DNA of 64,000 nucleotides from Caecibacter massiliensis. GTDB taxonomy: Bacteria > Bacillota > Negativicutes > Veillonellales > Megasphaeraceae. The notes beneath the pieces were generated by a model that worked only from the letters and a program-made list of their open reading frames with translations, made no database searches and had not been told where the DNA came from. The stretch spans positions 1,612,001 through 1,676,000 of the forward strand of contig LT608311.1 in assembly GCA_900095875.1 (NCBI GenBank), in the 5' to 3' direction. The position numbers were made by a program, and so were the translations under genes. Shown here in pieces: positions 31,743 through 49,967 of this stretch. Every line of letters begins with the position of its first letter. Position 1 is the stretch's first letter.

Positions 31743-32765
31743 ATGGGGTATCAATTGAGCAGACGGGCTCTGGCCGACGCCTTTAAATCCTGGTCCGGGA
31801 CGTACGATGTGTACGCTCCTACCGTATTTGCCGGTACGGGCCGGTTTTCCGAAACCGATGTCATCCGTTATGGCAAAGTGACCGATCCCGCCGATATCGT
31901 CTGGGACGCACGGTCTGATTATTCCTTTAAAGAAATCCTGATTCCTGTATGTCAGGTGTTGTTCTACTTTACGGAACACAGCGTGCAGGAATCGGAATTT
32001 CCCAAAAAAGGAGCCATCATTTTCCTGCGCAGCTGCGATCTGCATGCCGTGAAACGACTCGATTATATGTTCCTCCAGAACGGGCCGGAAGATTACTACT
32101 ATAAGACTCTGCGGGACAAGGTGAAATTCGTCGTCATGGGCTGTGACCATACCTTTGACGGCTGCTTCTGCGTGTCTATGGGTACCAACGTGAGCACCAA
32201 TTATGATGCGGCTGTCAATTTTAAAGATGGCATGTATTATGTGGACTGTCCTGATGAAACCCTGGCGGCTGCCCTGAAAAATCATGCCGAAGGAACTTGC
32301 GACGTGACAGCCGATCACGTGGAAAAAGACGATGTGGAAGTCCATATCCCGGACAACCTGACATCGGCCATCGCCAAGAGTTCTATCTGGGATGAATACG
32401 ACAAACGCTGCATCAAATGCGGCCGCTGCACCCTGGCCTGCCCGACCTGTACCTGCTGGTCTATGCAGGATATCTTCTACACGGAAAACGGCAAGGCCGG
32501 TGAACGGCGCCGTGTACAGACGAGCTGTATGTTCGACGACTATACGCTCGTCGCCGGCGGGGGCTGTTTCCGGCAGAAAGCGGGCGAACGGATGCGCTTC
32601 AAGGTACTGCACAAAGTCCTCGATTTCAAGAAGAGAGCCGGTTTTCAGATGTGCGTAGGCTGCGGCCGCTGTGATGCCATCTGTCCGGAATACATTTCGC
32701 TCACTCACTGCATTAATGAAAAGCTGCCCCAGGGCATGAAGGAGGTACTGGAAAATGGTCAATAA
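31743..32765 (+). CDS. asrA: Anaerobic sulfite reductase subunit A
   Basis: 340 residues. Iron-sulfur subunit that passes electrons to AsrC. Seen: C-terminal clusters CIKCGRCTLACPTC and CVGCGRCDAICPE, and an N-terminal region with SCDLHAVKRLDYMFLQNGPEDYYY and GCDHTFDGCFC. First gene of asrABC-FNT, with the next start overlapping its 3' end by 11 bases. AsrABC reduces sulfite to sulfide with NADH in anaerobes. Confidence 0.95.
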   Translation: MGYQLSRRALADAFKSWSGTYDVYAPTVFAGTGRFSETDVIRYGKVTDPADIVWDARSDYSFKEILIPVCQVLFYFTEHSVQESEFPKKGAIIFLRSCDLHAVKRLDYMFLQNGPEDYYYKTLRDKVKFVVMGCDHTFDGCFCVSMGTNVSTNYDAAVNFKDGMYYVDCPDETLAAALKNHAEGTCDVTADHVEKDDVEVHIPDNLTSAIAKSSIWDEYDKRCIKCGRCTLACPTCTCWSMQDIFYTENGKAGERRRVQTSCMFDDYTLVAGGGCFRQKAGERMRFKVLHKVLDFKKRAGFQMCVGCGRCDAICPEYISLTHCINEKLPQGMKEVLENGQ

Positions 32766-33564
32766 TGAATATCTGCCTTTCCGTTCGGAAATTCTGGAAG
32801 TCATCAAACATGCCGAACTGGAATATACATTCCGCATGTCCTATGACCGCGGCGACGAACATCCGGTCAAGCCGGGCCAGTTTTTTGAAATTTCCATCCC
32901 GAAATACGGGGAAGCGCCTATTTCCGTCAGCGGTATTACGGACCATTCCCTCGATTTCACCATCCGCCGCGTCGGCTCGCTGACGGACGAAATCTTCGAA
33001 AACTACGTCGGCGATTATTTCTTCATGCGCGGACCCTATGGCAACGGCTTCGATGTCAATATGTTCAAGGGCAAGGAAATCATCCTCGTCGCCGGCGGGT
33101 CGGGCCTGTCGCCTATCCACGGCGTCATCGATTACTTTGCCGACCACATGGATGAATGCAAGAAGCTGACAGTCATTGTCGGCTTTAAATCGCCGGACGA
33201 CATTCTCTTTAAGGAAGATCAGAAACGTTGGGCTGAAAAAGGAATTTCCCTCATCACTACCGTCGACCGGGCTCCCGAAGGCTATACGGGCCACGTCGGC
33301 ATGGTTACCAAATACATTCCTGACCTGACTTTTGAAGACATGCCCAATGCTATCTCCGTCGTCGTAGGTCCACCGCCGATGATTAAATTCTCCATCCTGG
33401 AATTGAAGAAAATCGGCTTCGACGTGGAAAATATCTGGCTGTCCGAATCGCGCAAGATGTGCTGCGGCCTGGGAAAATGCGGTCACTGCCGCATCGGCGA
33501 CATCTATATCTGCCAGGACGGACCGGTGTTCAAATATACGAAAATCAGTTCGATGATTGACTAG
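32755..33564 (+). CDS. asrB: Anaerobic sulfite reductase subunit B (FAD/NADH)
   Basis: 269 residues of the ferredoxin-NAD(P)+ reductase superfamily. Seen: the FAD-binding barrel (about 1-95, VKPGQFFEISIPKYGEAPISVS), nucleotide-binding VAGGSGLSPIHGVIDYF, and a C-terminal 2Fe-2S site RKMCCGLGKCGHCRIGDIYICQDGPVF. It takes electrons from NADH and feeds AsrA/AsrC. ATG 32755 follows GAAGGAGG inside asrA. Confidence 0.95.
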   Translation: MVNNEYLPFRSEILEVIKHAELEYTFRMSYDRGDEHPVKPGQFFEISIPKYGEAPISVSGITDHSLDFTIRRVGSLTDEIFENYVGDYFFMRGPYGNGFDVNMFKGKEIILVAGGSGLSPIHGVIDYFADHMDECKKLTVIVGFKSPDDILFKEDQKRWAEKGISLITTVDRAPEGYTGHVGMVTKYIPDLTFEDMPNAISVVVGPPPMIKFSILELKKIGFDVENIWLSESRKMCCGLGKCGHCRIGDIYICQDGPVFKYTKISSMID

Positions 33565-33577
33565 GAGGGATATAGCC

Positions 33578-34627
33578 ATGGATATGAATTGTGGTAAGTT
33601 AAAGAAATACGCTTTCCGGGTAACGAAGCATCGCGATGTGGCTTCGGCCCGTGTACGTGTCCCCGGTGGCTCCCTGAATGCCAAGATATTGGGCCAGATT
33701 CAGTATATTGCAGAAACGTATGGCAATGGCGACGTCCATCTGACCATCCGTCAGGGCTTTGAAATCCTGGGGATTCCCTTTGACAAGGTGGAAGAAGTCA
33801 AGAAAGCACTGCAACCGATCATTGATGAACTCGACATCAATCAGAGTGAACGGGGCGCTGGTTTTGAAGCGTCCGGTACGCGGAACGTCATGGCCTGCAT
33901 CGGCAACCGCGTCTGCCCCTTTGGCAACTACGATACGACGGCACTGGCAAAACGCATCGAAAAGGCTATTTTCCCTAACGATCTTCACGTCAAGGTCGCT
34001 CTTACGGGATGTCCCAACGATTGTGATAAAGTGCGTATGCATGACTTCGGCATCATGGGCATGACTGAACCCCAGTTCGACCCCACGCGGTGTGTCAGCT
34101 GCGGCATGTGCGTCCGCAAGTGCAAACAGCTTTCCGTAGAAGCCCTGCATATGAAGAATTTCCGTCCGGTCCGCAATGTGGAAAAATGCATCGGCTGCGG
34201 CGTATGCGTCTGGGCCTGCCCGAACCGCGCCTGGACGCGCAGCAAGGAACAGTATTTCCGCATTACCCTCCTGGGCCGCTCCGGCAAAAAGAATCCGCGC
34301 ATGGGCGTCGATTTCATTAAATGGGCCGATGCGGACAGCGTCGTAAAAATCGTTTCCAACGTATATGCCTTTGCCAAGAAATATATCGATCCGACGGCTC
34401 CCGGCGGCAAGGAACACATCGGCTACATGGTAGACCGTACCGGTCCGGAAGAATTCATCAAATTTATCCTTCAGGACGTACATCTGCCGAAGAAAGCAGA
34501 AATTTACCGTCCTCTCAACTGGTCTGGTATCCGCTATGTCGGCCTGAAATCGGAACCGTTCTATGTAGGCAAGGACGTAAACCCCGCCGATCTGGATGTG
34601 TTCCAGAAACCGTTGCCGCTCAAATAA
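33578..34627 (+). CDS. asrC: Anaerobic sulfite reductase subunit C (siroheme)
   Basis: 349 residues from ATG 33578 (AGGAGGGA upstream). Catalytic subunit reducing sulfite to sulfide. Seen: the ferredoxin-like half-domain VTKHRDVASARVRVPGG, HLTIRQGFEILGI, the siroheme/4Fe-4S cysteines in MACIGNRVCPFGNYDT and LTGCPNDCDKVRMHDFG, then a two-cluster ferredoxin insert CVSCGMCVRKCKQ and CIGCGVCVWACPN. A shorter paralogue of the same architecture lies at 44702 in the assimilation operon. Confidence 0.95.
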   Translation: MDMNCGKLKKYAFRVTKHRDVASARVRVPGGSLNAKILGQIQYIAETYGNGDVHLTIRQGFEILGIPFDKVEEVKKALQPIIDELDINQSERGAGFEASGTRNVMACIGNRVCPFGNYDTTALAKRIEKAIFPNDLHVKVALTGCPNDCDKVRMHDFGIMGMTEPQFDPTRCVSCGMCVRKCKQLSVEALHMKNFRPVRNVEKCIGCGVCVWACPNRAWTRSKEQYFRITLLGRSGKKNPRMGVDFIKWADADSVVKIVSNVYAFAKKYIDPTAPGGKEHIGYMVDRTGPEEFIKFILQDVHLPKKAEIYRPLNWSGIRYVGLKSEPFYVGKDVNPADLDVFQKPLPLK

Positions 34628-34637
34628 GGAGAATCTC

Positions 34638-37524: not shown

Positions 37525-38835
37525 TCACCTGCTTTGACGATACGATGCGACAGCGGCAAAGGCCGTGCCGGCGGCTTCAATGGTCCGTCTGATGTCGTCA
37601 TCGGTGTGGGCGCCGGAGACGAAACACGTTTCAAACTGGGACGGCGGCAGGTAGATACCCTGTTCCAGCATGGATTGGAAATAGACGGCAAAGGCGTCCT
37701 GGTCGGCGGCAGACGAGTCGGCGAAATTCTTCACATCTTTGTCGGTGAAAAACAGGCTGAACATGGAACCGGACTGGTGTACGCAGACGGCTACGCCCGC
37801 TTCGGCCGCTTTCTGACGCAGACCTTCCGTAAGGGTCGTCGTATGGGCCGTTACCCGCACCGTGTAAGACGGATCTTCCGTGATGATGCGCAGCGTTTCG
37901 ATGCCGGCTGTCATGGCCAGGGGGTTGCCCGAAAGGGTCCCGGCCTGATAGATGGGGCCGGCCGGGGAGACGCAGTCCATGAGATAGGCTTTGCCGCCAT
38001 AGGCCGCTGCCGGCAGGCCGCCGCCGATGATTTTGCCGAGACAGGTCATGTCCGGCGTAATGCCATAATAGGCCTGGGCACCGTGGAGGGCCGTACGGAA
38101 TCCGCACATGACTTCATCGAAAATGAGAATCGCGCCGTGGGCCTGGGTCTGGCTGCGCAGGGCCTGCAGGAACGATTCCTCCGGCAGGACCAGCCCCATA
38201 TTGCCGGCAACGGGTTCGACGATGACGGCGGCGATGTCGTTGCCGAAACCGTCCATGATGCGGTTGAAGGATTTACTGTCGTTATAGGGAAGGGTAATGG
38301 TGTCGGCAGCCGTCGCAGCGGGAACGCCGGGGCTGTCGGGCTGGCCGAAGGTGGCGGCACCACTGCCGGCGCTGACCAGGAGACTGTCGGCATGGCCGTG
38401 ATAACATCCCTGGAATTTGATGATTTTATCGCGGCCCGTAAAACCGCGGGCGACGCGCAGGGCGCTCATGGTGGCTTCCGTGCCGGAATTGACCATGCGC
38501 AGCTTTTCGATAGAGGGATAGATGCTCTTGATAAGGCGGGCAATTTCCGATTCGAGCAGGGTCGGCGCGCCATAGCTCGTGCCGCGGGCCGCCGCTTCCT
38601 GCAGGGCCTTGACGACGCGGGGATGGGCGTGGCCGGCGATCATGGGACCCCACGAACCGACGTAATCGATATAGGTGTTGCCGTCGATATCGGTGATGGA
38701 AGATCCTTTGGCCGAGGCGATAAATGGCGGTGTGCAGCGGACGCGTCCGTACGAACGGACGGGGCTGTTGACGCCGCCGGGCATGAGGGACTGGGCGTCC
38801 TTAAATGCAGCTTGGGAATGAGTCAGTGTGAGCAT
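37525..38835 (-). CDS. hemL: Glutamate-1-semialdehyde 2,1-aminomutase
   Basis: 436 residues. PLP enzyme that turns glutamate-1-semialdehyde into 5-aminolevulinate. Seen: DAQSLMPGGVNSPVRSYG at the N-terminus, FQGCYHGHADSLLV, IFDEVMCGFR and the PLP lysine in LGKIIGGGLPAAAYGG. Directly follows hemA (21 bases), forming the C5 pathway for ALA. Confidence 0.97.
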   Translation of the reverse strand: MLTLTHSQAAFKDAQSLMPGGVNSPVRSYGRVRCTPPFIASAKGSSITDIDGNTYIDYVGSWGPMIAGHAHPRVVKALQEAAARGTSYGAPTLLESEIARLIKSIYPSIEKLRMVNSGTEATMSALRVARGFTGRDKIIKFQGCYHGHADSLLVSAGSGAATFGQPDSPGVPAATAADTITLPYNDSKSFNRIMDGFGNDIAAVIVEPVAGNMGLVLPEESFLQALRSQTQAHGAILIFDEVMCGFRTALHGAQAYYGITPDMTCLGKIIGGGLPAAAYGGKAYLMDCVSPAGPIYQAGTLSGNPLAMTAGIETLRIITEDPSYTVRVTAHTTTLTEGLRQKAAEAGVAVCVHQSGSMFSLFFTDKDVKNFADSSAADQDAFAVYFQSMLEQGIYLPPSQFETCFVSGAHTDDDIRRTIEAAGTAFAAVASYRQSR

Positions 38836-38856
38836 GGATACATCCTCCTTGATCGG

Positions 38857-40113
38857 TTACAGTTTGAAGAAATCGGAAAGAGAGCGGACCGTTTCTTCTT
38901 CTTTATCGGTCCGGGCCGCGCCGACGGTCTGCATCATGGGATCGCGCAGGAGTTTGCGTACGATCATGTGGGTCATATTTTCGATGATGCGGTACTGTTC
39001 GTCTGTCAGGCCCGGTAATTTGTTCATGGCCCGGCGGAATTCCCGCTTCCGGGCCTGTTCTGCTTTTTCCGACAGGCGCAGGAGAGCCGGCCGTACGGGA
39101 AGGTAGCGGAAGCGCTGCAGCAGTTCCTCTGTCTCTTCCTGGACAATCGTTCCGGCCAGGGCGGCTTCGCGCTGCCGTGATTGTTCATTTTCCGCCACCG
39201 TCGTCGTCAGGTCGTCGATATTATACAGGGAAATGCCGGGAAGATCTGCGGCAGACGGCTCGATATCCCGGGGAACGGCGATATCGATGAGAAGCAGCGG
39301 ACGCCCCTTGCGGGCCTTCATGATGGCGGCCAGTCGTTCTTCCGTCAGGACGTAGTGGGGCGCTCCCGTAGAAGTGACGATGATATCGGCCCGGGCAGCA
39401 GCCTCATTGCCCTTCTGGTAATGGACGGCCGTGCCGGAAAGAAGGGAGGCCAGCTTCTGTGCCCGTTCGATATGGCGGTTGACGATATACAGTTTTTTCA
39501 GACCTTTGCCTAAAAAATTGCGGGCCGCCAGTTCCGCCATCTGACCGGCGCCGAAGAGGAGCAGTGTCTTTCCGGTGACGTCTCCCAGGAGATGTTCTGC
39601 CAGCTGGACGGCAGCATAACTGACGGAAACGGCGTTGTAGGCGATGTGCGTATCCGTCCGGACCCGTTTGCCTGTGGCGATGGCCTGATGGAACAGGAGG
39701 TTTAGGACGATTCCCGTGGCACCGCAGTCATGGGCCAGCAGATAGGCCTGCTTGACCTGACTGAGAATCTGGCCCTCGCCGATGATCTGGGAATCGAGGC
39801 TGGAAGCGACACGCAACAGGTGGACGATGCAGTCCCGCCCGGTATAGGTATAGAAATAGTCTGGCCGGATTTCCGGTTTACCGTTCAGCAGGGAAAGAAA
39901 GAAATCCTGCAGCACGCGGGCCGGCGTGCCTTCGGGACAGACGGCATAGATTTCACTGCGGTTGCACGTCGAGAGGATGACCGCTTCATGTATTGTTTGA
40001 TACTGTCCGCTCTGCGACAAGGCCGTGCGGATGCGTTCCGGCGGCACAGAGAACTGTTCACGTACGGAAACGGGGACCGTCTTGTGATTCAGGCCCCAGA
40101 CGAATAATTCCAT
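38857..40113 (-). CDS. hemA: Glutamyl-tRNA reductase
   Basis: 418 residues. Reduces glutamyl-tRNA to glutamate-1-semialdehyde with NADPH. Seen: GLNHKTVPVSVRE, the catalytic cysteine in VILSTCNRSEIYAV, LLRVASSLDSQIIGEGQILSQVKQAY, and the NADPH site LLFGAGQMAELAARNFLGKG. First committed enzyme of tetrapyrrole synthesis; the remaining siroheme genes lie at 45.8-50 kb. Confidence 0.97.
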   Translation of the reverse strand: MELFVWGLNHKTVPVSVREQFSVPPERIRTALSQSGQYQTIHEAVILSTCNRSEIYAVCPEGTPARVLQDFFLSLLNGKPEIRPDYFYTYTGRDCIVHLLRVASSLDSQIIGEGQILSQVKQAYLLAHDCGATGIVLNLLFHQAIATGKRVRTDTHIAYNAVSVSYAAVQLAEHLLGDVTGKTLLLFGAGQMAELAARNFLGKGLKKLYIVNRHIERAQKLASLLSGTAVHYQKGNEAAARADIIVTSTGAPHYVLTEERLAAIMKARKGRPLLLIDIAVPRDIEPSAADLPGISLYNIDDLTTTVAENEQSRQREAALAGTIVQEETEELLQRFRYLPVRPALLRLSEKAEQARKREFRRAMNKLPGLTDEQYRIIENMTHMIVRKLLRDPMMQTVGAARTDKEEETVRSLSDFFKL

Positions 40114-40256: not shown

Positions 40257-41189
40257 TTAGCGCAAAAATCCGGGGATAGTCAGGTAACGGTTTCCCGAGT
40301 CGGGGAGGAGGGTGACGATAGTTTTTCCGCGATATGCTTCCTGCCGGGCATACGAAACGGCGGCAGCCAGGGCGGCTCCGCCGGAAATACCGGTCAGGAT
40401 GCCTTCCGTGCGGGCGAACTGCCGGGCAGCCGTGAAAGCTTCTTCTGTGGTGATAGTCTTTATGTCATCGTATACGTGCGTATCCAGCGTGTCGGGAATA
40501 AAATTGGCGCCGATACCCTGGAGCATGTGCGGACCGGCATGACCTTCCGAGAGCAGGGGCGAGTCAGCCGGTTCGATGGCGACGATGCGCACCGACGGGA
40601 TGGTGCGTTTTAAATAATGACCGATGCCGCTCAGAGTACCGCCCGTGCCGACACCGGCGAGGAACAGGTCGATCTGTCCGTCCGTGTCATCGTATAATTC
40701 CGGCCCCGTCGTTTCTTCGTGGATCCTGGGATTGACGGGATTGGTAAACTGGCCGGGAATGAAGGAGTGGGGAATTTCCCGGGCCAGTTCCTGTGCTTTT
40801 TCAATCGAACCGGTCATGCCCTTATACCCTTCGGTCAGGACGATTTCCGCACCGTAAGCGGCCATGAGGTTCCGCCGTTCGATGCTCATCGTATCGGGCA
40901 TGACGAAGATGGCCCGGTATCCTTTGGCGGCAGCGGCAGCAGCCAGGCCTATGCCCGTATTGCCGCTGGTCGGTTCGATGAGGACCGAGTCCGCCTGGAG
41001 GATGCCCTGGTGTTCGGCGTCTTCAATCATGGCCAGGGCGACCCGGTCTTTGACGCTGCCGGCGGGATTCAGGTATTCCAGTTTAACGAGAAGGCGGGCT
41101 GCCAGATGGTGGCTGTCGTTGAAGCGGACCGGTTCCAGAAGGGGCGTATGACCGACGAGGCCGGTCATGCCAGTGTACACTTTTTTCAT
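40257..41189 (-). CDS. cysK: Cysteine synthase, PLP-dependent
   Basis: 310 residues. Joins O-acetylserine and sulfide (or, in CysM/CysO systems, a protein thiocarboxylate) to make cysteine. Seen: PLP lysine in NPAGSVKDRVALAMIE, EPTSGNTGIGLAAAAAAKGY, phosphate loop GVGTGGTLSGIG. Divergently transcribed from the sulfur-carrier operon and sharing a palindromic operator with it, which ties it to that operon's product. CysK and CysM types cannot be separated with confidence here. Confidence 0.94.
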   Translation of the reverse strand: MKKVYTGMTGLVGHTPLLEPVRFNDSHHLAARLLVKLEYLNPAGSVKDRVALAMIEDAEHQGILQADSVLIEPTSGNTGIGLAAAAAAKGYRAIFVMPDTMSIERRNLMAAYGAEIVLTEGYKGMTGSIEKAQELAREIPHSFIPGQFTNPVNPRIHEETTGPELYDDTDGQIDLFLAGVGTGGTLSGIGHYLKRTIPSVRIVAIEPADSPLLSEGHAGPHMLQGIGANFIPDTLDTHVYDDIKTITTEEAFTAARQFARTEGILTGISGGAALAAAVSYARQEAYRGKTIVTLLPDSGNRYLTIPGFLR

Positions 41190-41245: not shown

Positions 41246-41273
41246 ATTATATACTGTATTTATTTCATGTCAA
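41246..41273 (-). promoter_or_regulatory. cysK promoter
   Basis: On the minus strand: TTGACA (41273-41268), 16-base spacer, TATAAT (41251-41246). Confidence 0.75.
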
Positions 41274-41277
41274 ATTA

Positions 41278-41294
41278 TTAGAATTAAATTCTAA
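41278..41294. promoter_or_regulatory. Shared palindromic operator TTAGAATT-A-AATTCTAA
   Basis: A perfect 8-1-8 palindrome lying five bases upstream of the cysK -35 and 29 bases upstream of the divergent -35. Its AT-rich GAATT/AATTC form recalls binding sites of Rrf2-type cysteine regulators such as CymR. Likely co-regulates cysteine synthase and the sulfur-carrier operon. Confidence 0.6.
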
Positions 41295-41322: not shown

Positions 41323-41351
41323 TTGACAGACGAAATATAAAAGTGTACTAT
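41323..41351 (+). promoter_or_regulatory. Promoter of the sulfur-carrier operon
   Basis: TTGACA (41323-41328), 17-base spacer, TACTAT (41346-41351). It leaves a leader of about 135 bases before ATG 41495, with short repeats of GGGAGNT(C/G) and possible hairpins but no recognised riboswitch. Confidence 0.75.
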
Positions 41352-41494: not shown

Positions 41495-42973
41495 ATGACC
41501 GATACTTCAATACCTGCACGGAGCCGTTCGGCTTTTCTTGCCAGTGAAGACTGGTGGGCCGTGTGGCTGGGATTATTCATTTTTGCCCTCGGTGCCGGAC
41601 GCATCGGGGATGTCGATCTTCTGGGATGGGTTCCCAAATTCGGCGTCTGGATGGATCCGGTCAAAGCCGTGGCGGCCAATTCCCCGGCCTTTTCCTGGCT
41701 CGGCGGTGCCGGAACTGTCATCGCCGCCTATTTCTTTGTCCTCCTTCTTACGACTATAGGCGCCTGGTTCATGGGCGCACGGATCAAACGGTTCATAGCC
41801 AGCTTTTCTATCCTGTACTGGCTCACTATCGGAGCCAATATACTCGGCAACTATGCATATCTGGCAGCGACGCCGGATAAACGGGCGGCTTTTCACATCA
41901 CCTGGTCTCTGAGCCTGGGTGAACTGGGATTCGTCTTTGCCCTTGTGGCAGGACTCATCATCGGAAATTTCTTTCCGTCGGCGGCCCGCTTCCTCTCGGT
42001 AGCAGCCAGACCGGAATGGTATATCAAGACGGGCATTGTCATCCTCGGTGCCAACATCGGCATTCAGGCCATCAGTGCCATGAGCCTGGCCGGGACGGTC
42101 ATCGTCCGCGGCCTGTGCGCCGTCGTCGAAGCCTACCTCATTTACTGGCCTGTCGTCTATATCATCGCCCGCAAGTTCTTCCATTTCACACCGGAATGGG
42201 CGGCCCCCATGGCCTCCGGCATTTCCATCTGTGGCGTCGCCGCTGCCATTGCCACAGGCAGTGCCATCCGGGCACGGCAGATCATCCCGGCTATACTGGC
42301 TTCGGTCATTATCGTATTCGTCGCCGTGGAACTGCTGATCCTGCCCTTCGCCGCCGCCTTCTTTCTCTCCGGTGAACCGATGGTAGCCGGCTCCTGGCTG
42401 GGACTGGTCGTCAAGAGCGATGGCGGTGCCGTCGCATCGGGAGCCATCGCTGATTCGCTCATCCGCAGTCAGGTACTGGAACAGACGGGGATAGCCTATC
42501 AGGAAGGGTGGATTCTCATGGCGACGACGACAGCCAAAGTCTTCATCGATATCTTCATCGGCGTCTGGTCCTTTATCCTGGCCGTCGTATGGTCGGTCTG
42601 GCACCTGAGCAGCCGCGACGGCGTGAGCCGTCCTGCCGGCAGCGTTTCCAAACGGGAAATCTGGGACCGGTTCCCAAAATTCATCATCGGCTTCGTCGGA
42701 CTCCTGGCGGTGGTCTTTTTCTCCGGACTCGTCCGTCCCGACCTGATTGCGGGACTCAAAGCCGGTGCCGGACAGGCTAATCTCATCCGGACAATCTTTT
42801 TCGGCCTCTGCTTTTTCTCCATCGGACTAGTGACCAATGTCCGCAAATTATGGCATGCCGGCCTGGGACGCGTGACCGGTGTCTATGCCGTAGCGCTCCT
42901 GGGATTCATCATCTGGGTCGGCCTCGGTATTTCCTGGCTCTTTTATCAGGGCATCGTCCCGCCGGCCATATAA
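41495..42973 (+). CDS. YeiH-family putative sulfate/sulfite exporter
   Basis: 492 residues from ATG 41495 (GAGGTGAT upstream). Polytopic membrane protein of the YeiH family (PF03601), longer than the usual 340 because of an extra N-terminal helical part. Typical blocks: GLIIGNFFP, KTGIVILGANIG, SGISICGVAAAIATGSAIRAR and SDGGAVASGAIADSLI. Members are regulated with cysteine metabolism and are predicted to move sulfate, sulfite or related anions; direction is not proven. As first gene of a sulfite-reduction operon it may bring in, or vent, sulfite or a sulfonate. Confidence 0.85.
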   Translation: MTDTSIPARSRSAFLASEDWWAVWLGLFIFALGAGRIGDVDLLGWVPKFGVWMDPVKAVAANSPAFSWLGGAGTVIAAYFFVLLLTTIGAWFMGARIKRFIASFSILYWLTIGANILGNYAYLAATPDKRAAFHITWSLSLGELGFVFALVAGLIIGNFFPSAARFLSVAARPEWYIKTGIVILGANIGIQAISAMSLAGTVIVRGLCAVVEAYLIYWPVVYIIARKFFHFTPEWAAPMASGISICGVAAAIATGSAIRARQIIPAILASVIIVFVAVELLILPFAAAFFLSGEPMVAGSWLGLVVKSDGGAVASGAIADSLIRSQVLEQTGIAYQEGWILMATTTAKVFIDIFIGVWSFILAVVWSVWHLSSRDGVSRPAGSVSKREIWDRFPKFIIGFVGLLAVVFFSGLVRPDLIAGLKAGAGQANLIRTIFFGLCFFSIGLVTNVRKLWHAGLGRVTGVYAVALLGFIIWVGLGISWLFYQGIVPPAI

Positions 42974-43025
42974 CATATAAGTACAATAAATAGGAATAGT
43001 TATCGTATGAAAGGTGTGATCATCT

Positions 43026-43247
43026 ATGGCAAGTGAACTGACATCGCATCGGCTGCCACAGGCTGACGAATACTATTATAAACAGACGAACAATCACATT
43101 ACCCCAAGGGATAACGAAATAGAAACAGGGGCGGACGCCGGGGCCTATTTTCCCCTCCAGCCCATCGAAAAGAAACTCTGCGCCTATACGTTCGGCCTGG
43201 GAATCATCCTGCTCTTTATTTTCGTGATTATATTTAAAGTATTATAG
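43026..43247 (+). CDS. Small single-pass membrane protein, 73 residues
   Basis: Not recognised. A hydrophilic N-terminus with QADEYYYKQTNNHITPRDNE leads to one helix YTFGLGIILLFIFVIIFKVL at the C-terminus. It lies 52 bases after the YeiH gene and 11 before the ThiS-like gene on the same strand, so it is part of the operon and may assist the transporter. Confidence 0.65.
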   Translation: MASELTSHRLPQADEYYYKQTNNHITPRDNEIETGADAGAYFPLQPIEKKLCAYTFGLGIILLFIFVIIFKVL

Positions 43248-43258
43248 GAGGCATCAAT

Positions 43259-43468
43259 ATGACCATTCAGGTAAATGGGGAACCATTTCAGACAGAAATC
43301 CCGATCAGCGTGACAACGCTTCTGAAAGAAGCCCGGGTAGAAGCCCCGGAATATGTAACCGTCCAGCTCAATCAGCAGTTTATCCGCCGGGACGATTTTG
43401 ATACGACCGTGCTCAGCGATGGAGATGTCGTCGATTTCCTGTACTATATGGGAGGCGGTTCCCGGTGA
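43259..43468 (+). CDS. ThiS/MoaD-like sulfur-carrier protein with C-terminal cap
   Basis: 69 residues, beta-grasp fold, MTIQVNGEPFQTEIPISVTTLLKE... Active ThiS proteins end exactly in Gly-Gly; this one ends MGGGSR, so two or three residues must be removed before a thiocarboxylate can form. The same operon encodes a JAMM metalloprotease, the enzyme type that does this for HcyS in Wolinella succinogenes. The E1 enzyme gene overlaps its stop (GTGA). It most likely carries sulfide for cysteine or homocysteine synthesis rather than thiamine, since no thiazole genes are near. Confidence 0.88.
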   Translation: MTIQVNGEPFQTEIPISVTTLLKEARVEAPEYVTVQLNQQFIRRDDFDTTVLSDGDVVDFLYYMGGGSR

Positions 43469-44286
43469 AACTGACGAACGAACAACTGGAACGGTATTCG
43501 CGGAACATCATCCTATTTGGCGGCAAGGGACAGAAGAAACTCCTGGCCGGCAAGGTGCTGGTCATCGGTGCCGGTGGACTGGGTGCACCGGCGGCTCTGT
43601 ACCTGGCAGCGGCCGGCGTCGGTACTATCGGCATCGTCGATTACGATGTGGTCGATTTGTCTAATCTGCAGCGCCAGATCATCCATTCCACGGCATCGGT
43701 GGGCCAGCGCAAGGTCGATTCGGCCAGCCATACCCTGGAAGGACTTAATCCGGATGTGCACGTCGTCACCTATAATGAATGGGTCAATTCCCAGACGCTG
43801 CCCCAGATTATCGACGACCAGCATTATGATTTCATCATCGACGCGACGGATAATTTCCCGGCCAAGTTCCTCATCAACGATGCCTGCGTACTGGGAGGCC
43901 ATCCCTTTTCTCATGCCGGCATCATCCGCTTCGGCGGTCAGACCCTGACCTATGTGCCGGGCAAAGGTCCGTGCTACCGCTGTATCTTTGACACCATGCC
44001 GCCGGCCGGGGCGGTGCCATCGTGCAAAGAAGCGGGCATACTGGGAGCCGTTGGCGGCGTCATCGGCTGCATACAGGCCACAGAAGCCATCAAGTACCTC
44101 CTGGGACAGGGTGAACTGCTCACCGGTGCCCTTCTCACCTACGATGCTCTGACCATGCGATTCCGCAAGATTCCCGTTGGACATAATCCTCATTGTGCAA
44201 TCTGCGGCGACGACCCGTCCATTCACGAGCTCATCGATTATAAGCAGCCTGTATGTGAAAGCAAAGTGGGAAAGGGGTCGCTATGA
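43465..44286 (+). CDS. ThiF/MoeB/HesA-type E1-like adenylyltransferase
   Basis: 273 residues from GTG 43465, overlapping the carrier gene. It adenylates the carrier's C-terminal glycine. Seen: nucleotide site VLVIGAGGLGAPAALYLAAAGVGTIGIVDYDVVDLSNLQRQ, DATDNFPAKFLINDAC, zinc-binding CYRCIF and PHCAICGDD pairs, and Cys in VPSCKEAGILG. No rhodanese domain, so sulfur must come from another source, such as sulfide made by the sulfite reductase two genes on. Confidence 0.93.
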   Translation: MKLTNEQLERYSRNIILFGGKGQKKLLAGKVLVIGAGGLGAPAALYLAAAGVGTIGIVDYDVVDLSNLQRQIIHSTASVGQRKVDSASHTLEGLNPDVHVVTYNEWVNSQTLPQIIDDQHYDFIIDATDNFPAKFLINDACVLGGHPFSHAGIIRFGGQTLTYVPGKGPCYRCIFDTMPPAGAVPSCKEAGILGAVGGVIGCIQATEAIKYLLGQGELLTGALLTYDALTMRFRKIPVGHNPHCAICGDDPSIHELIDYKQPVCESKVGKGSL

Positions 44287-44729
44287 TACATCTGACACGG
44301 TCTGATTATGAGGCCATGACGGCCTATGCCCGGAAACAGCTGCCCAATGAATGCTGCGGCCTGCTGGCGGGAAAACGAAGTGGTGGCGACGCATTCGTTG
44401 AGAAGGTATATTATCTGAACAATACCGATGCCAGTCCGGAACATTTTTCCATGGATCCGGCAGAGCAGTTTGCCGTCATGCGGGAAATACGCCAGCGTAA
44501 TCTGGCCCTCATCGGCAATTTCCACAGCCACCCGGCAACGCCGTCCCGCCCGTCCGACGAAGACAAACGGCTGGCCTTCGACCCGTCGCTGCGCTATCTG
44601 ATTCTGTCGCTGGCGGAAAGCGGGCCGGTCCTGCGAAGTTTTCGTATCCGCGGCGGCGAGGCGATAGCAGAGCCACTACACATCGAAGAGGAGGAATCAC
44701 ATTGGCAGATGCAAATTTCAAGGAACTAA
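44283..44729 (+). CDS. JAMM/Mov34 metalloprotease (Mec/HcyD-like)
   Basis: 148 residues. A complete JAMM zinc site: Glu in NECCGLLAG, then HSHPATPSRPSDED (HxHP-x6-SxxD). Two roles are known for such proteins beside sulfur carriers: trimming the carrier's C-terminal extension (HcyD) and releasing the amino acid from carrier-cysteine (Mec in Mycobacterium). The capped GGGSR carrier makes trimming necessary here; it may do both. Start overlaps the E1 stop (ATGA) and the reductase gene overlaps its end. Confidence 0.92.
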   Translation: MIHLTRSDYEAMTAYARKQLPNECCGLLAGKRSGGDAFVEKVYYLNNTDASPEHFSMDPAEQFAVMREIRQRNLALIGNFHSHPATPSRPSDEDKRLAFDPSLRYLILSLAESGPVLRSFRIRGGEAIAEPLHIEEEESHWQMQISRN

Positions 44730-45565
44730 AAAAAGGCGGCTTCATGAAACAGAAGCAGAAAGATCGTTTCTCCATGAGGCTGAAAACCATTGGCGGACAG
44801 GTGACTATAGAACAGCTGGAAACGATCCGTCACGTCGCCGAAACCTATGGACACGGATATATCCATCTCACATCCCGGCAGGGCATTGAAATCCCCTTTA
44901 TCGCCCTGGAAGATATCGATACGGTAAAGAAAGAACTGGCCAAAGGCGGCGTACAGAATGGCGTCTGCGGCGCCCGGCTGCGCACGATTACGGCCTGTCA
45001 GGGAAACGCCGTCTGCCCGTCGGGGCTGATCGACACCCAGCACATAGCCAGGGAATGTGAAGCCCGCTATGGCGGACGGGAATTTCCGGCCAAATTCAAA
45101 ATCGGCATCACAGGCTGTCCCAATAACTGTCTGAAGACGGAAGAAAATGACCTGGGCATCAAAGGCGGCATCGAACCGCAATGGCATCATGATGACTGTA
45201 TTTTCTGCGGCCTCTGTCAGGCCGTCTGCCCGTCTTCGGCCATTACAGTGGATAAGAAAGAAAAGACCCTTTCTTTTACGGCGGACCAGTGCCTGTTCTG
45301 TGGCAAGTGCGTTACTACCTGTCCGTCTTCGGCCTGGGTAGGAACAGCCGGCTATAACGTATCCCTGGGAGGCCTTTATGGCAAGCAGATCACTATTGGC
45401 AGGCATTTCCTGCCCCTCCTTCACTCGGAAGAAGAACTGTATCGCGTCATCGATGTAGTTCTCGACTTTTTTGAAAACCACGCCAAACCGGGAGAACGCT
45501 TTGCCAAAACGGTAGAACGGATTGGCTGGGACACAGTAGAACGACTCGTCCGGGAGGTATTATGA
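44702..45565 (+). CDS. Siroheme sulfite reductase with ferredoxin domain
   Basis: 287 residues if starting at TTG 44702, which has GAGGAGG nine bases upstream; ATG 44744 would give 273. The TTG start keeps an FKELKKGGFMKQKQKD beginning that fits the family. Seen: siroheme/4Fe-4S ligands TACQGNAVCPSGLIDT and ITGCPNNCLKTEEND, then CIFCGLCQAVCPSS and CLFCGKCVTTCPSS. It reduces sulfite (or nitrite) to sulfide. It is a paralogue of AsrC but lies among sulfur-carrier genes, so it is probably the assimilatory one, delivering sulfide to the adenylated carrier. Confidence 0.9.
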   Translation: MADANFKELKKGGFMKQKQKDRFSMRLKTIGGQVTIEQLETIRHVAETYGHGYIHLTSRQGIEIPFIALEDIDTVKKELAKGGVQNGVCGARLRTITACQGNAVCPSGLIDTQHIARECEARYGGREFPAKFKIGITGCPNNCLKTEENDLGIKGGIEPQWHHDDCIFCGLCQAVCPSSAITVDKKEKTLSFTADQCLFCGKCVTTCPSSAWVGTAGYNVSLGGLYGKQITIGRHFLPLLHSEEELYRVIDVVLDFFENHAKPGERFAKTVERIGWDTVERLVREVL

Positions 45566-45801
45566 ACATAGACAACACTATCGATATTACGGATGTCGTC
45601 TGTCCCGTGACCTATGTCAAAGTAAAGGTCGAACTGGAAGATATGGAACCGGGACAGGTCCTGTCCGTCCGGCTCAACAGCGGCGACGCTCTGCAGAACG
45701 TCCCGCGGAGTCTGAAAAATGACGGACACCGCGTCTTCGACGTGACAGACAACGAAGACGGGACTTACACGATTCTCGTCGAACGGGGACAGGACGACTA
45801 A
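45562..45801 (+). CDS. TusA/SirA-like sulfur-transfer protein
   Basis: 79 residues. The persulfide-forming cysteine is in DVVCPVTYVKVKVELEDMEPGQVL, a CPxP-type motif with Thr replacing the second Pro. TusA proteins shuttle sulfane sulfur between enzymes. Start overlaps the reductase stop (ATGA). It may collect sulfide/persulfide from the reductase and pass it to the ThiS-like carrier. Last gene of the operon. Confidence 0.88.
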   Translation: MNIDNTIDITDVVCPVTYVKVKVELEDMEPGQVLSVRLNSGDALQNVPRSLKNDGHRVFDVTDNEDGTYTILVERGQDD

Positions 45802-45854
45802 AAAAAACGGATTCTCCTATGAAACAGCTGATTTCACAGGAGAATCCGTTTTTT
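45802..45854. terminator. Bidirectional terminator between tusA-like and hemB genes
   Basis: Near-perfect AAAAAACGGATTCTCCT/AGGAGAATCCGTTTTTT arms serve the two converging operons. Confidence 0.9.
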
Positions 45855-45855
45855 A

Positions 45856-45882
45856 CTAAACGTCAGACATCAAACGTCAGAT
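45856..45882. repeat. Heptamer repeat array C, includes the hemB stop
   Basis: Units (complement strand) CTGACGT-TTGATGT-CTGACGT-TTAG overlap the last codons of hemB (…LTFDV) and supply its TGA stop, so the repeat has grown into or replaced the gene end. Confidence 0.65.
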
Positions 45883-46861
45883 GATCTTTTTCGCCGAGCC
45901 AGCGGGCGACGTCCAGAGCGTGATAGGTGATGATGATATCGGCACCGGCCCGTTTCATGGACAGGAGCGATTCCAGGACGATCCGTTTTTCGTCGATCCA
46001 GCCGTTTTGGGCAGCCGCTTTGACCATGGCATATTCACCGCTGACGTTGTAGACGGCGATGGGGCGGTCAATGCGGTCCCGGGCCTGACGGACGATATCG
46101 AGATAAGTCATGGCCGGCTTGATCATGATGATGTCAGCCCCTTCATCGAGGTCGAGGCTGATTTCCTTCATGGCTTCCCGGGAATTGGCCGGATCCATCT
46201 GATACTGGCGGCGGTTGCCGAACTGCGGGGCCGAGTTGGCCGCATCGCGGAAGGGGCCGTAAAAGGCCGAGGCGTATTTGACGGCGTAGGACATAATGGA
46301 AACGTTCTGGAAACCCTTTTCATCGAGGGCTGTGCGGATGGCGGCGATGCGGCCGTCCATCATGTCTGACGGGGCGATGATGTCGGCACCGGCTGCTGCC
46401 TGGCTGACGGCCGTCCGGGCCAGGAGCGGCAGGGTAGCGTCGTTATCGACGTAATGGCTGCAGAGCTTGCCACAATGGCCATGGCTGGTGTACTGGCAGA
46501 GACAGACATCGCCGACGATGACCAGACCGGGCAGTTCTTTTTTGATGGCTTCCATGGCCCGCTGCACCGGGCTCTTCGGGTCCCATGCCGATGAGCCTGT
46601 TTCATCCTTGTATCCGGGCAGGCCGAATACTTCAATGGCCGGGATGCCGAGGGAGACGGCGAGGCGGGCCGTTTCTACGGCTTTATCGACTGACAGGTGA
46701 TAACAGCCGGGCAGGCTGGGGATTTCTTCTTTTACATGGCTGCCGGGAACGACGAAGATAGGGTAAATCAGGTCCGATACGGACAGGTGGTTTTCCCGCA
46801 CCATAGAGCGGACGGGAGCGGAAATGCGCAGGCGGCGCGGGCGTAAGGCGTTATATTTCAT
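45863..46861 (-). CDS. hemB: Porphobilinogen synthase
   Basis: 332 residues. Condenses two 5-aminolevulinates. Seen: zinc ligands in DVCLCQYTSHGHCGKLC, active-site lysines in SIMSYAVKYASAFYGPFRDAANS and VYNVSGEYAMVKAA. The last codons lie in a heptamer repeat. Start overlaps the end of cobA-hemD by 11 bases. Last gene of the siroheme operon. Confidence 0.97.
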   Translation of the reverse strand: MKYNALRPRRLRISAPVRSMVRENHLSVSDLIYPIFVVPGSHVKEEIPSLPGCYHLSVDKAVETARLAVSLGIPAIEVFGLPGYKDETGSSAWDPKSPVQRAMEAIKKELPGLVIVGDVCLCQYTSHGHCGKLCSHYVDNDATLPLLARTAVSQAAAGADIIAPSDMMDGRIAAIRTALDEKGFQNVSIMSYAVKYASAFYGPFRDAANSAPQFGNRRQYQMDPANSREAMKEISLDLDEGADIIMIKPAMTYLDIVRQARDRIDRPIAVYNVSGEYAMVKAAAQNGWIDEKRIVLESLLSMKRAGADIIITYHALDVARWLGEKDHLTFDV

Positions 46862-48377
46862 TATGATGTCGTCTCCAATCGAGTATATTCTGAGTCAGGC
46901 CTTCTATGGTATAGGTCGAAGCCGTGAGAGCCGGTGTGAGTCCTTCGCGGGTACAGGTTGCGGCAGTCACGGGACCGATACAGGCCAGTGGTACCGGTTC
47001 CAACAGGTCGCGGCGGTCTCCCAGGAGGTCCAGAAGAGAGGTGACTGTCGAAGAACTGGTACAGGTGATGAGGTCCAGAGCGTGTTCTTCGAGAAGCGAT
47101 ACGAGGCGCTCTCTGTTTTCTGAAGCGGGTACCGTCCGGTATGCCGGGGCGATGGTCACTCTGGCACCGGCACTATGCAGGCGGTCCGGTAGGACGTTGC
47201 GTGCTTGTTCGGCCCGGACGAGCAGGACGCGGGAAGACGGGGAAATATGGGGCAGGAGGCTGTCGGCCAGCGATTCGGCCCGGTACTCAGGCGGCACGAC
47301 GTCGGCCTGCAGGCCGTACGAGCGGAGCGCTTCTGCCGTGGCACTGCCGATGACACCCAGCCGGAGGCCTCCCAGGGCGCGGCTGTCTTCCTTAAATTCC
47401 CGGAGGCGGTGGAAGAAGCGGTGGACGCCGTTACTGCTGGTAAAGAGCAGCCAGTCATACGAGGTCAGGTGGTAAATGGCCTGATCGAGGGTTGCATAGT
47501 GGTCTGACGGATCTTCCAGACGGATGGTAGGGATTTCGATGCACGATGCGCCCTGTTCTTCCAGCCGGGCCGACAGGGCCGATGCCTGGCGGCGTGTACG
47601 GGTGATGCCGACGGTGAAGCCGAAGAGGGGCCGTTTGTCGAACCAGCGCAGGCGGCCGCGGCAGCGGACGACGTCGCCGACAAGAAAGATAGCCGGCGGC
47701 GTGATGCCCTGTCGGGCGGCTTCATAGGCGGCGCTTCCCAGGGTCGTCACGATAGTCGTCTGGTCGCTGCGGGTGCCCCAGCGGATGATGGCCGCCGGCG
47801 TATCGGCGCTGCGGCCACAGGAGATGAGCCGCGCCGTGATGTCGGGCAGATTGCGGACGCCCATGACAAAGACCAGTGTATCTGTACCGGTCGCCAGTTT
47901 TTCCCAGTCGATGGCCGATCCGTTTTTCTTCGGGTCTTCATGGCCGGTAATGACGGAAAAGGAGGAAGCCATGCCCCGTTCGGTCACGGGAATGCCGGCA
48001 TAGGCCGGTACGGCGATGGCCGAGGAAATGCCCGGCACGACTTCAAAGGGAATGCCCGCATGGAAAAGAGCAGCTCCTTCTTCACCGCCCCGGCCGAAGA
48101 CGAAGGGGTCGCCTCCTTTGAGACGCACGACCGTACGGCCTTCCCGGGCCTTGGCGATGAGCAGGTCGTTGATTTCTTCCTGACGCAGCGTATGATGACC
48201 GGCGGTCTTTCCGACGTAAATGCGTTCGGCCTCTGGCCGGGCGAAGTCCAGCAGCCGTTCGTCGGCCAGATGGTCGGTGACGACCGTATCAGCCCGTTCC
48301 AGCAATTCCTTTCCCCGGAGGGTGAGCAGGCGCCAGTCTCCGGGACCGGCGCCGACGAGATAGACGGTTCCTGTCAT
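46851..48377 (-). CDS. cobA-hemD: Uroporphyrinogen-III methyltransferase / synthase fusion
   Basis: 508 residues. The N-terminal CobA/SUMT part (about 1-245: VYLVGAGPGDWRLLTLRGKELLERADTVV, KGGDPFVFGRGGEE, GISSAIAVPAYAGIPVTERG) methylates uroporphyrinogen III to precorrin-2. The C-terminal HemD part (about 250-500: GFTVGITRTRRQASALSARLEEQGA, FTSSNGVHRFF, CTSSSTVTSLL) closes the ring. This fusion is common in anaerobic Firmicutes/Negativicutes and directs flux to siroheme and cobalamin. ATGA overlap with hemC. Confidence 0.96.
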   Translation of the reverse strand: MTGTVYLVGAGPGDWRLLTLRGKELLERADTVVTDHLADERLLDFARPEAERIYVGKTAGHHTLRQEEINDLLIAKAREGRTVVRLKGGDPFVFGRGGEEGAALFHAGIPFEVVPGISSAIAVPAYAGIPVTERGMASSFSVITGHEDPKKNGSAIDWEKLATGTDTLVFVMGVRNLPDITARLISCGRSADTPAAIIRWGTRSDQTTIVTTLGSAAYEAARQGITPPAIFLVGDVVRCRGRLRWFDKRPLFGFTVGITRTRRQASALSARLEEQGASCIEIPTIRLEDPSDHYATLDQAIYHLTSYDWLLFTSSNGVHRFFHRLREFKEDSRALGGLRLGVIGSATAEALRSYGLQADVVPPEYRAESLADSLLPHISPSSRVLLVRAEQARNVLPDRLHSAGARVTIAPAYRTVPASENRERLVSLLEEHALDLITCTSSSTVTSLLDLLGDRRDLLEPVPLACIGPVTAATCTREGLTPALTASTYTIEGLTQNILDWRRHHNEI

Positions 48378-49321
48378 AATGTATCTCCTTTTATGGTAGT
48401 TCGAAGTGAGCGGAGCAGGGCTTCGCCACCGCCGGCCAGCATGTCTTTGCCGAGCTCATAGCCCAGTTTCCGGGCATCGGCTGCCGGCGCTGTGGCCTGC
48501 CGGTTCAGGCAGGTGCGGCCGTCCGGTGAGGCGATGAAGGCCCGCAGGACGAGGTCTCCTCCCTGCCAGGAGGCAAAGGCTCCGGCAGGAATCTGGCAGC
48601 TGCCGCCGATGGCTGCGGCGCAGGCCCGTTCAGCCGTGACGGCTGCTGCCGTCCGCTCGTCGTGGATGGCCTGCAGCAGCCGGAGGACCGGTTCGTCATC
48701 CGAACGGGCTTCGATGGCAAGAGCCCCCTGTCCGGCGGCGGGCAGAAATTGATCCGGCGGCAGCAGGCTGGTGATACGGTCCGAAAGGCCCAGGCGGATG
48801 AGGCCGGCTGCGGCCAGGATGATGGCGTCGTAGTCCCCGTCATCGAGACGGGACAGGCGCGTATCGACGTTGCCCCTGAGGTCAGAGACCGTAAGGTCCG
48901 GCCGCAGGTGCAGCAGCTGGGCCTTTCGGCGCAGACTGGATGTACCGACGACGGCGCCTCTGGGAAGGTCAGAAAGACTCTGGTAGCGGCGTGAGACGAA
49001 GGCGTCTTTTTCATTTCCCCGGGCCGGGACCGCTGCCAGGATCAGTCCGTCCGGCAGTTCCGATGGCATATCTTTCAGACTGTGTACGGCCAGGTCCAGC
49101 GTGTGGCCATAGAGACCGCGCTCGATTTCTTCCGTAAACAGGCCCTTGCCGCCGATGGCGCTGAGGGGCCGGTCGATGATGCGGTCGCCGCGGGTAGTGA
49201 CACATTGCAGGGTAATGGTAAGGCCGGGACAGGCCTTTTGCAGGAGCTGGCGGACGTAACCGGCCTGCCACAGGGCCAGGCGGCTGCGGCGGGTGCCGAT
49301 GACGAGGGAATCAGGAAGCAT
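48374..49321 (-). CDS. hemC: Porphobilinogen deaminase
   Basis: 315 residues from ATG 49321, chosen because LVIGTRRSRLALWQAGYVRQLLQ is the family start; the frame stays open upstream but reads non-family sequence that shadows the preceding gene. Polymerises four porphobilinogens. Seen: HSLKDMPSELPDGL and the dipyrromethane-cofactor cysteine in AAIGGSCQIPAGAF. Overlaps the preceding gene by 11 bases and cobA-hemD by four. Confidence 0.96.
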   Translation of the reverse strand: MLPDSLVIGTRRSRLALWQAGYVRQLLQKACPGLTITLQCVTTRGDRIIDRPLSAIGGKGLFTEEIERGLYGHTLDLAVHSLKDMPSELPDGLILAAVPARGNEKDAFVSRRYQSLSDLPRGAVVGTSSLRRKAQLLHLRPDLTVSDLRGNVDTRLSRLDDGDYDAIILAAAGLIRLGLSDRITSLLPPDQFLPAAGQGALAIEARSDDEPVLRLLQAIHDERTAAAVTAERACAAAIGGSCQIPAGAFASWQGGDLVLRAFIASPDGRTCLNRQATAPAADARKLGYELGKDMLAGGGEALLRSLRTTIKGDTL

Positions 49322-49967
49322 GGGGACCTCCTTTCCCGATGAGCCAGAAGGCCAGTTTCTGCCAGAGTACCTGTTCGGCTTCGGCCATCTGGCCGCCGAG
49401 GGCTTGTTCCATGAGTTCGTCTGTAAGCGACGAGCGCCAGAAGGCCTGCCGGTCTTTGCCGGATGGAATCTGGGAGCGCACTTCTTGACGGATGACGGCC
49501 AGACGGTCCAGCCACCGGGACCAGTCGGGGGTGATTTCCTGTTCCAGATGATGACGCATCCAGCGGGTAAAGGCCGGTGATTTCCCATTGCTTGATATGC
49601 TGCAGAGGATATCGCCGCGGCGGACGACGGACGGCGTCGTCCAGTTGCTTTCCTGTGGGGCGTCGCAGACATTGACCAGCTTGTGCTGGCTAAGGGCTGC
49701 AGCGGCACAGGCGCTGTTGGTTTCGCTGTCGTTGGAAGCGCAGATAATCAGATAAAAAGGGATTTCGTCGCCGTCTTCGTATAGTTTCTTCAGCCAGGTG
49801 ATGTCTCCCTGGTCGGCCCGTTCCTGAAGAGACGGACAGAGCGACGGCGACAGGACGGTGACGGCCGCGCCGGCGTCGAGCAGACCCTGCACTTTCTGGG
49901 CAGCTACGGCGCCGCCGCCCAGGATGAGACATTCCTTGTCATCGAGGATGAGATTTATAGGGTACAT
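49311..49967 (-). CDS. Precorrin-2 dehydrogenase / sirohydrochlorin ferrochelatase (Met8/CysG N-terminal type)
   Basis: 218 residues from ATG 49967 (AAAGGA upstream; MYPINLILDDKECLILGGGAVAAQKVQGLLDAGAAVTVLSP). NAD-dependent oxidation of precorrin-2 to sirohydrochlorin; some members also insert iron. Later blocks: CDAPQESNWTTPSVVRRGDILCSISSNGKSPAFTRWMRHHLE. First gene of the minus-strand operon with hemC, cobA-hemD and hemB. Supplies siroheme to AsrC and the 44702 reductase. Confidence 0.93.
   Translation of the reverse strand: MYPINLILDDKECLILGGGAVAAQKVQGLLDAGAAVTVLSPSLCPSLQERADQGDITWLKKLYEDGDEIPFYLIICASNDSETNSACAAAALSQHKLVNVCDAPQESNWTTPSVVRRGDILCSISSNGKSPAFTRWMRHHLEQEITPDWSRWLDRLAVIRQEVRSQIPSGKDRQAFWRSSLTDELMEQALGGQMAEAEQVLWQKLAFWLIGKGGPHAS

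Follow-up and report, generated by a model that had tools for sequence, protein, structure and literature searches.

A sulfur-carrier and sulfite reductase operon headed by a YeiH-type transporter gene in Caecibacter massiliensis

In the 64,000-nucleotide stretch of Caecibacter massiliensis DNA analysed here (contig LT608311.1, positions 1,612,001 to 1,676,000; hereafter the window), seven plus-strand genes at positions 41495-45801 encode, in order, a YeiH-type transporter, a small membrane protein, a ThiS-like sulfur carrier, an E1-like adenylyltransferase, a JAMM metalloprotease, a siroheme sulfite reductase (SIR) and a TusA-like protein, as confirmed by the open reading frame (ORF) list and the sequence. 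The operon is real and coherent; its kind is known, its front end new. The combination of carrier, E1, JAMM, SIR and TusA is already known, going by the passages of the earlier survey cited below, and the new part seems to be the front end, in which a sulfite-family transporter travels with a tiny unnamed membrane protein. We consider it probable, at roughly 60%, that the operon encodes a version of the HcyS/HcyF/HcyD protein-thiocarboxylate pathway in which sulfite is the entry compound. The observed basis of this reading is the gene content, the active-site residues, the capping of the carrier and its linkage to MetY in relatives, and the lack of a match for two sulfate-activation families.

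In the pathway that we infer from these observations, its chemical steps and direction of transport included, YeiH and its small partner would move sulfite across the membrane, a function taken from the transporter family, and the small SIR would make sulfide, with TusA possibly holding or passing on the sulfur. JAMM would remove the Ser-Arg cap, exposing the GGG end of the carrier, which E1 would adenylate on the way to the thiocarboxylate. A pyridoxal phosphate (PLP)-dependent synthase, most likely the canonical MetY that is encoded elsewhere and has a palindrome in common with the operon, would put the sulfur on activated homoserine, and JAMM would release homocysteine. CysK would be co-regulated and would probably work on free sulfide.

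The operon and its core proteins

Profile scans with Pfam and NCBIfam underlie the family calls and bit scores. The genes are as follows.

41495..42973, plus strand: YeiH-type transporter of the PSE family, 492 amino acids (PF03601, 66.6 bits)
43026..43247, plus strand: small one-helix membrane protein (helix judged from the sequence), constant companion of YeiH
43259..43468, plus strand: ThiS-like sulfur carrier (Pfam ThiS, 38 bits), ending MGGGSR, that is GGG and the cap Ser-Arg
43465..44286, plus strand: E1-like adenylyltransferase with a GTG start (ThiF, 265 bits; MoeB/ThiF-like in NCBIfam)
44283..44729, plus strand: JAMM metalloprotease (Prok-JAB, 85 bits)
44702..45565, plus strand: small siroheme sulfite reductase, 287 amino acids, with a TTG start (NIR_SIR, 106 bits, with NIR_SIR_ferr and two 4Fe-4S)
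45562..45801, plus strand: TusA-like sulfur relay (TusA, 73 bits; C14-P15 conserved)

The first-pass annotation had described seven co-directional, mostly overlapping genes with these identities, which the ORFs and Pfam matches bear out: the junctions are, in order, gaps of 52 and 11 nt and overlaps of 4, 4, 28 and 4 nt (four of six overlap). Its grouping of the capped carrier, matching protease, E1, SIR and TusA into one unit is supported, and the presence of YeiH in the same operon, which it had taken to be new together with the TusA relay, is indeed unusual. Taken as a whole, this first interpretation is partly supported.

To judge from sequence conservation, the residues of the core proteins suit active enzymes. 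E23, H81, H83, S91 and D94 of JAMM, forming the E, HxH, S and D set, are invariant in the 28 rows of the alignment. ThiF is the sole Pfam domain matched in E1, with no rhodanese domain, and its conserved cysteines are C141, C170, C173, C187, C244, C247 and C264; the presumed roles of Cys170, Cys173, Cys187, Cys244 and Cys247, and of Cys14 of TusA, follow those in their families. SIR has 13 conserved cysteines, which would suffice for what we take to be four for the siroheme-coupled cluster and eight for the two ferredoxin clusters. The nearest solved chain is the C-terminal half of the F420-dependent sulfite reductase 7np8. Like the C-terminal half of Fsr and the AsrC-type reductases, SIR has a siroheme domain with an inserted double ferredoxin; unlike them, it is a stand-alone protein of 287 amino acids, far under the AsrC cut-off (162 vs 324). 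The close-relative search gave no viral relatives of SIR. A foreign origin of the operon was rejected on composition, its G+C fraction of 0.551 being within the variation seen among 4.3-kb segments across the window (mean 0.506, standard deviation 0.071).

Relatives of the core and the choice of synthase

JAMM relatives occurred in 46 of 300 genomes of the class, C. massiliensis included; the 14 listed genomes of the same genus had none. The 46 loci were combined with the best 80 of 542 matches in named GTDB contigs, and the titles of contigs with relatives name Clostridia, Spirochaetes, Synergistaceae, Succinivibrionaceae and others. Removal of 14 loci whose JAMM core was identical to another reduced the 126 to 112 (43 Negativicutes and 69 named). 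Many of these contigs are short; flanks of 4.5 kb or more on both sides define a long-flank subset of 73 loci.

Close to JAMM, the carrier was found in 102, E1 in 96, SIR in 68 and TusA in 84 of the 112 loci, and all five core genes in 59. The order carrier-E1-JAMM-SIR-TusA of the window recurs in 33 of these 59 complete loci, while 21 have SIR-TusA-carrier-E1-JAMM, four have SIR-carrier-E1-JAMM-TusA and one has another order. The comparison of gene order across Negativicutes that the first-pass annotation had proposed gave the window order in 28 of 30 complete loci. Judged by this shared content and order in relatives, the grouping of the core genes exceeds chance. TusA directly follows SIR in 58 of the 62 loci holding both. 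Both genes are present in 48 of the long-flank loci, TusA alone in 12, SIR alone in 4 and neither in 9; the more frequent retention of TusA than of SIR would suit a TusA that passes sulfur to the carrier. The gene set for carrier-dependent homocysteine synthesis is thus widespread in gut and rumen anaerobes, and the synthesis has reportedly been demonstrated at the bench in one Epsilonproteobacterium.

Several variants of the neighbourhood were observed. TusA lies near carrier genes with no SIR in reach in L121, L135, L137, L148, L154, L159, L161 and L163 and, within the same 12 of 73, in L165, L174, L180 and L185. Ten Treponema/Spirochaetia loci (L141, L151, L157, L166, L168, L181, L184, L188, L190 and L191) have adjacent carrier and JAMM genes and no E1 match in the stretch examined. 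A second, more distant JAMM of genome G255 (L060:9881-10288) has no other core match in its stretch. In several Negativicutes loci (family f14, with one representative per family identified), the core adjoins AprA, CysD, CysN and ATP-binding cassette (ABC) transport genes.

The carriers are capped: 100 of the 102 calls end in GGG followed by 1-11 residues and the remaining two are wrong frames, with no carrier call above threshold in 10 of the 112 loci. At L059:5404-6525, carrier and E1 form one in-frame ORF, ...GGGSR/SLSNEQ (...MGGGSRSLSNEQLERYSRH...), on a single contig where an assembly slip is possible; such a fusion would require cleavage after the glycines. It resembles a ubiquitin-fusion precursor.

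NCBIfam labels the carrier ThiS (58.6 bits, cut-off 37.45) and E1 is MoeB/ThiF-like, as would be expected if the two served thiazole or other cofactor synthesis. Moreover, four of ten ThiS-like paralogs beside the relatives' cores also have 1-7 residues past GGG, so that a carrier tail alone is no proof of function. The other six paralogs stop at GGG, whereas the operon carriers are capped; the operon has no thi genes, and the genome has a separate ThiS at C2:1012085, beside ORFs judged by eye to be thiG and thiH. Unlike the carrier of the ThiS/ThiF thiamine system, that of the window is unlinked to thiamine genes and is not the only ThiS in its genome. We regard a role in thiamine or cofactor synthesis as very improbable.

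MetY linkage, counted within 5.5 kb on the same strand as the core, was found in 59 of the 112 loci: 55 have a single operon type and 5 the canonical type, one locus having both. A weak match in L180 (286 bits), which is not of the operon type, is left out of the count. CysK was close to the core in seven. Among the long-flank loci, 42 have MetY and five CysK, the latter always together with MetY; on two short contigs (L076 and L150), CysK is seen and MetY is not. Homocysteine is the likelier product because MetY is the usual synthase neighbour; of the two products that the first-pass annotation had left side by side, homocysteine thus gains and cysteine loses ground. In G187, a genome of a sister genus, a T-box, a S-adenosylmethionine (SAM) riboswitch, canonical metY, YeiH, the small protein and the core form one run, and the G187 core is the sister of the window core (approximate likelihood-ratio support, SH-aLRT, of 99 in a quick tree). 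In trees, the operon-type MetY groups with the solved chain 3ri6 (100/98; 88/98 in a second tree, for which two of the rows had been picked wrongly), which we take to be the MetY of the Wolinella homocysteine pathway. As a side observation, two Cys/Met-type PLP enzymes, separated by a transporter-like ORF, lie near the thiamine genes of C. massiliensis at L110:6094-10037.

The HcyS/HcyF/HcyD/Sir/MetY homocysteine pathway of Wolinella succinogenes, reportedly described by Krishnamoorthy and Begley in 2011, is said to be the bench-tested example of a carrier, E1, JAMM, sulfite reductase and TusA set. The window resembles it in its capped carrier, E1, JAMM and Sir, and 3ri6 groups with the MetY of relatives; it differs in that the 3ri6-type MetY is absent from the genome and the YeiH pair is added to the operon. 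MetY within the cluster, as in the Hcy pathway, is lacking in the window operon and present in G187 (canonical) and in the 59 linked loci (both types). In its passages on row 4e, the survey of Iyer et al. (2006; PMC1779556) already lists ThiS/MoaD, JAB, E1 and sulfite reductase neighbourhoods with SirA always present, so that the TusA relay, which the first-pass annotation had taken to be new in such an operon, is not. The class also includes sulfate genes and O-acetylhomoserine sulfhydrylase (PMC1779556). The window operon shares with it, as far as those passages go, the ThiS-like carrier, JAB, rhodanese-free E1, SirA/TusA and sulfite reductase; unlike it, the operon lacks the sulfate ABC, 3'-phosphoadenosine 5'-phosphosulfate (PAPS) reductase, ATP sulfurylase and sulfhydrylase genes and has YeiH and the small partner.

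Upstream of the operon lies a divergent cysK, with the following features.

40257..41189, minus strand: cysK, O-acetylserine sulfhydrylase type (PALP, 251 bits; TIGR01139, 408 bits vs cut-off 351)
41246..41273, minus strand: cysK promoter-like site TTGACA-16-TATAAT (12/12 positions)
41278..41294: perfect 17-nt palindrome TTAGAATTAAATTCTAA, a putative shared operator between the cysK and operon promoter-like sites
41323..41351, plus strand: operon promoter-like site TTGACA-17-TACTAT (10/12 positions)

The two promoter-like sites point away from the central palindrome, which gives sequence-level support to the first-pass proposal of cysK divergent under a shared operator. Promoter-like sites in the region are not in excess (7 vs 5.0 in shuffles, standard deviation 1.8). 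A genome search that allowed up to two mismatches gave six places with the palindrome (reversed control, 0): between cysK and the operon; ahead of a T-box and metY; ahead of a T-box followed by genes for an unassigned protein and a MetQ-like lipoprotein; ahead of a SAM riboswitch, a small ORF and SsuA/SsuC-like (sulfonate-type ABC) genes; and at two places without an evident sulfur gene, so that four of the six are at sulfur genes. The names MetQ-like and Ssu-like come from best matches that stay under the NCBIfam cut-offs. Read from the model alignment, in columns that we take to hold the specifier, the T-box specifiers are UGC in G187 and AUG at the metY and metQ-like T-boxes of C. massiliensis. 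At L105:4047-4082, a short ORF preceded by a strong ribosome site and encoding MNRIDCMCTNS stands between the palindrome and a SAM riboswitch and looks like a Cys/Met leader peptide.

This arrangement would also fit a pathway in which the loaded carrier gives its sulfur to the divergent CysK and JAMM frees cysteine, as in the CysO/Mec/CysM system of Mycobacterium, which reportedly joins a carrier, a JAMM protein and a cysteine synthase and whose E1 (MoeZ) carries a rhodanese domain. The window likewise has a carrier and JAMM with a cysteine synthase nearby; unlike that system, it has a divergent CysK instead of CysM, a rhodanese-free E1 in the operon and no ClpS gene in the operon. CysO/Mec/CysM-type neighbourhoods correspond to row 4d in the relevant part of PMC1779556. 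The palindrome between the two promoter-like sites, the absence of a 3ri6-type MetY from the genome, CysK near the core in seven loci (in L054, immediately upstream of the carrier) and the lack of a visible MetY on L076 and L150 speak for cysteine. On the other side, CysK never occurs without MetY in the long-flank loci, the enzyme beside the operon is of the ordinary cysK type and scores below the cysM cut-off (258 vs 394 bits), and the palindrome precedes metY too. We judge cysteine an unlikely product of the carrier. The genome has a second cysK at C2:1077122, and its best CysE match (163 bits) is below the cut-off of 211.

Several observations weigh against homocysteine synthesis by an Hcy-type pathway. 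MetY is out of reach in 53 of the 112 loci, many of them on short contigs, and only 14 of 32 long-flank Negativicutes loci have it. There is no metY inside the window operon, and the 3ri6-type enzyme is absent: none of the six full-length PF01053 proteins encoded by C. massiliensis exceeds 428 bits, vs at least 509 for true members. The 3ri6 branch is itself long (1.3-1.4). Twelve of the 73 long-flank loci keep TusA without SIR and nine have neither. The window and G187 cores evolve fast (branches 0.61 and 0.50), so that their function may have shifted. A family-wide palindrome regulon is unsupported (9 places vs 11 for the control in 11 relatives), and the regulon may thus be local. The canonical metY of the genome lies about 67 kb from the operon, and the locus raises the question of whether a MetY or CysK of the ordinary kind can be served by a carrier.

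Proposed sulfite entry through YeiH and a small partner protein

The YeiH subfamily (E <= 1e-40) is present in 20 of the 300 class genomes, and JAMM in 12 of these 20 (Fisher p 2e-6, uncorrected for kinship). In all 20, the gene directly after YeiH encodes a small protein that has a hydrophobic stretch at its C-terminal end (in G292, YeiH is split over two contigs). The small protein of the window has no Pfam or NCBIfam match, and searches of the open-licence PMC literature gave no pointer to a small partner of YeiH or to YeiH in such an operon. A SAM riboswitch lies upstream of the YeiH-partner pair in G148 and G214, which lack JAMM; the pair is followed by a sulfite reductase in G028 and preceded by metY-type genes in G042. 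Neither a SAM riboswitch nor a T-box was reported at the other YeiH loci scanned (L224-L229 and L059). Fold prediction of YeiH from a four-row alignment gave a mean pLDDT (predicted local distance difference test score) of 36.6. At L222:6826-9441, in the genus mate G148, YeiH and its small partner precede an E1 (429 bits), and that stretch yielded neither a carrier nor JAMM.

The C. massiliensis genome has no PAPS_reduct (CysD/CysH-type) match and no ATP-sulfurylase match, other activation routes not having been searched, and the same two matches are missing in G187. Sulfite is the likely entry compound because these genes were not found; within the same limit on the routes searched, sulfate as the source is unsupported. 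In the genus mates G003 and G208, a set similar to the Asr and formate/nitrite-family channel genes of the window comes after CysD- and CysN-like ORFs and a cysK that a SAM-riboswitch-like pattern precedes (pattern match, by eye).

A SAM riboswitch normally leaves the genes downstream of it switched on during methionine shortage. Uptake of sulfite fits better than the proposed export by YeiH because the YeiH-partner genes follow SAM riboswitches in three relatives. We tentatively suggest that YeiH and its one-helix partner form a two-part sulfite uptake system, induced by shortage of sulfur amino acids and replacing sulfate activation ahead of the carrier pathway, in a lineage that has also lost its dedicated carrier-using MetY and now loads canonical MetY or CysK; we would give this full proposal well under even odds. 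If true, C. massiliensis would be a sulfite-only sulfur assimilator in which a known sulfite-exporter family works inward.

Alternatively, the YeiH pair may expel surplus sulfite while both sulfite reductases clear the rest, the carrier step being secondary. In the sections consulted, yeiH mutants of Salmonella are sulfite-sensitive and sulfite export is proposed (PMC12880088), and YeiH of Hyphomicrobium is named as a candidate sulfite exporter (PMC11582611); export is a proposal in these sections, which do not show transport. The second reductase is encoded nearby:

31743..34627, plus strand: AsrA, AsrB and AsrC anaerobic sulfite reductase, a separate unit 7-10 kb upstream (TIGR02910/02911/02912, above cut-off)

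The riboswitch-linked pairs of G148 and G214 and the T-box/SAM-riboswitch operon of G187, all expected to be on at methionine shortage, stand against export, as does the lack of a PAPS_reduct or ATP-sulfurylase route found for making sulfite inside the cell. Export and detoxification is a doubtful reading that nonetheless keeps some weight. The window YeiH belongs with the YeiH/SuyZ PSE family by its PF03601 match (66.6 bits) and differs from it in the constant one-helix companion and in the starvation-type control in three relatives, studied members being proposed exporters in the parts of the reports consulted. The family is tied to sulfite resistance in gut bacteria, and the locus poses a concrete test of the direction of transport and of the need for a small subunit. 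Three features merit bench work: the YeiH pair, the missing sulfate activation and the absence of a 3ri6-type MetY.

Leader and neighbouring genes

A riboswitch search of the window gave none at the gathering threshold, and folding of the operon leader was unremarkable (z -0.01). Beyond tusA lies one further feature.

45805..45851, reported on the minus strand: terminator-like stem of 20 pairs

At 31743-35399, 6-10 kb upstream of the operon, AsrA, AsrB and AsrC are accompanied by a formate/nitrite-family channel. The operon is flanked at 37525-40113 and 45863-50042 by ORFs that by eye encode hemL, hemA, hemB, cobA-hemD, hemC and a siroheme dehydrogenase, which would fit a supply of siroheme.

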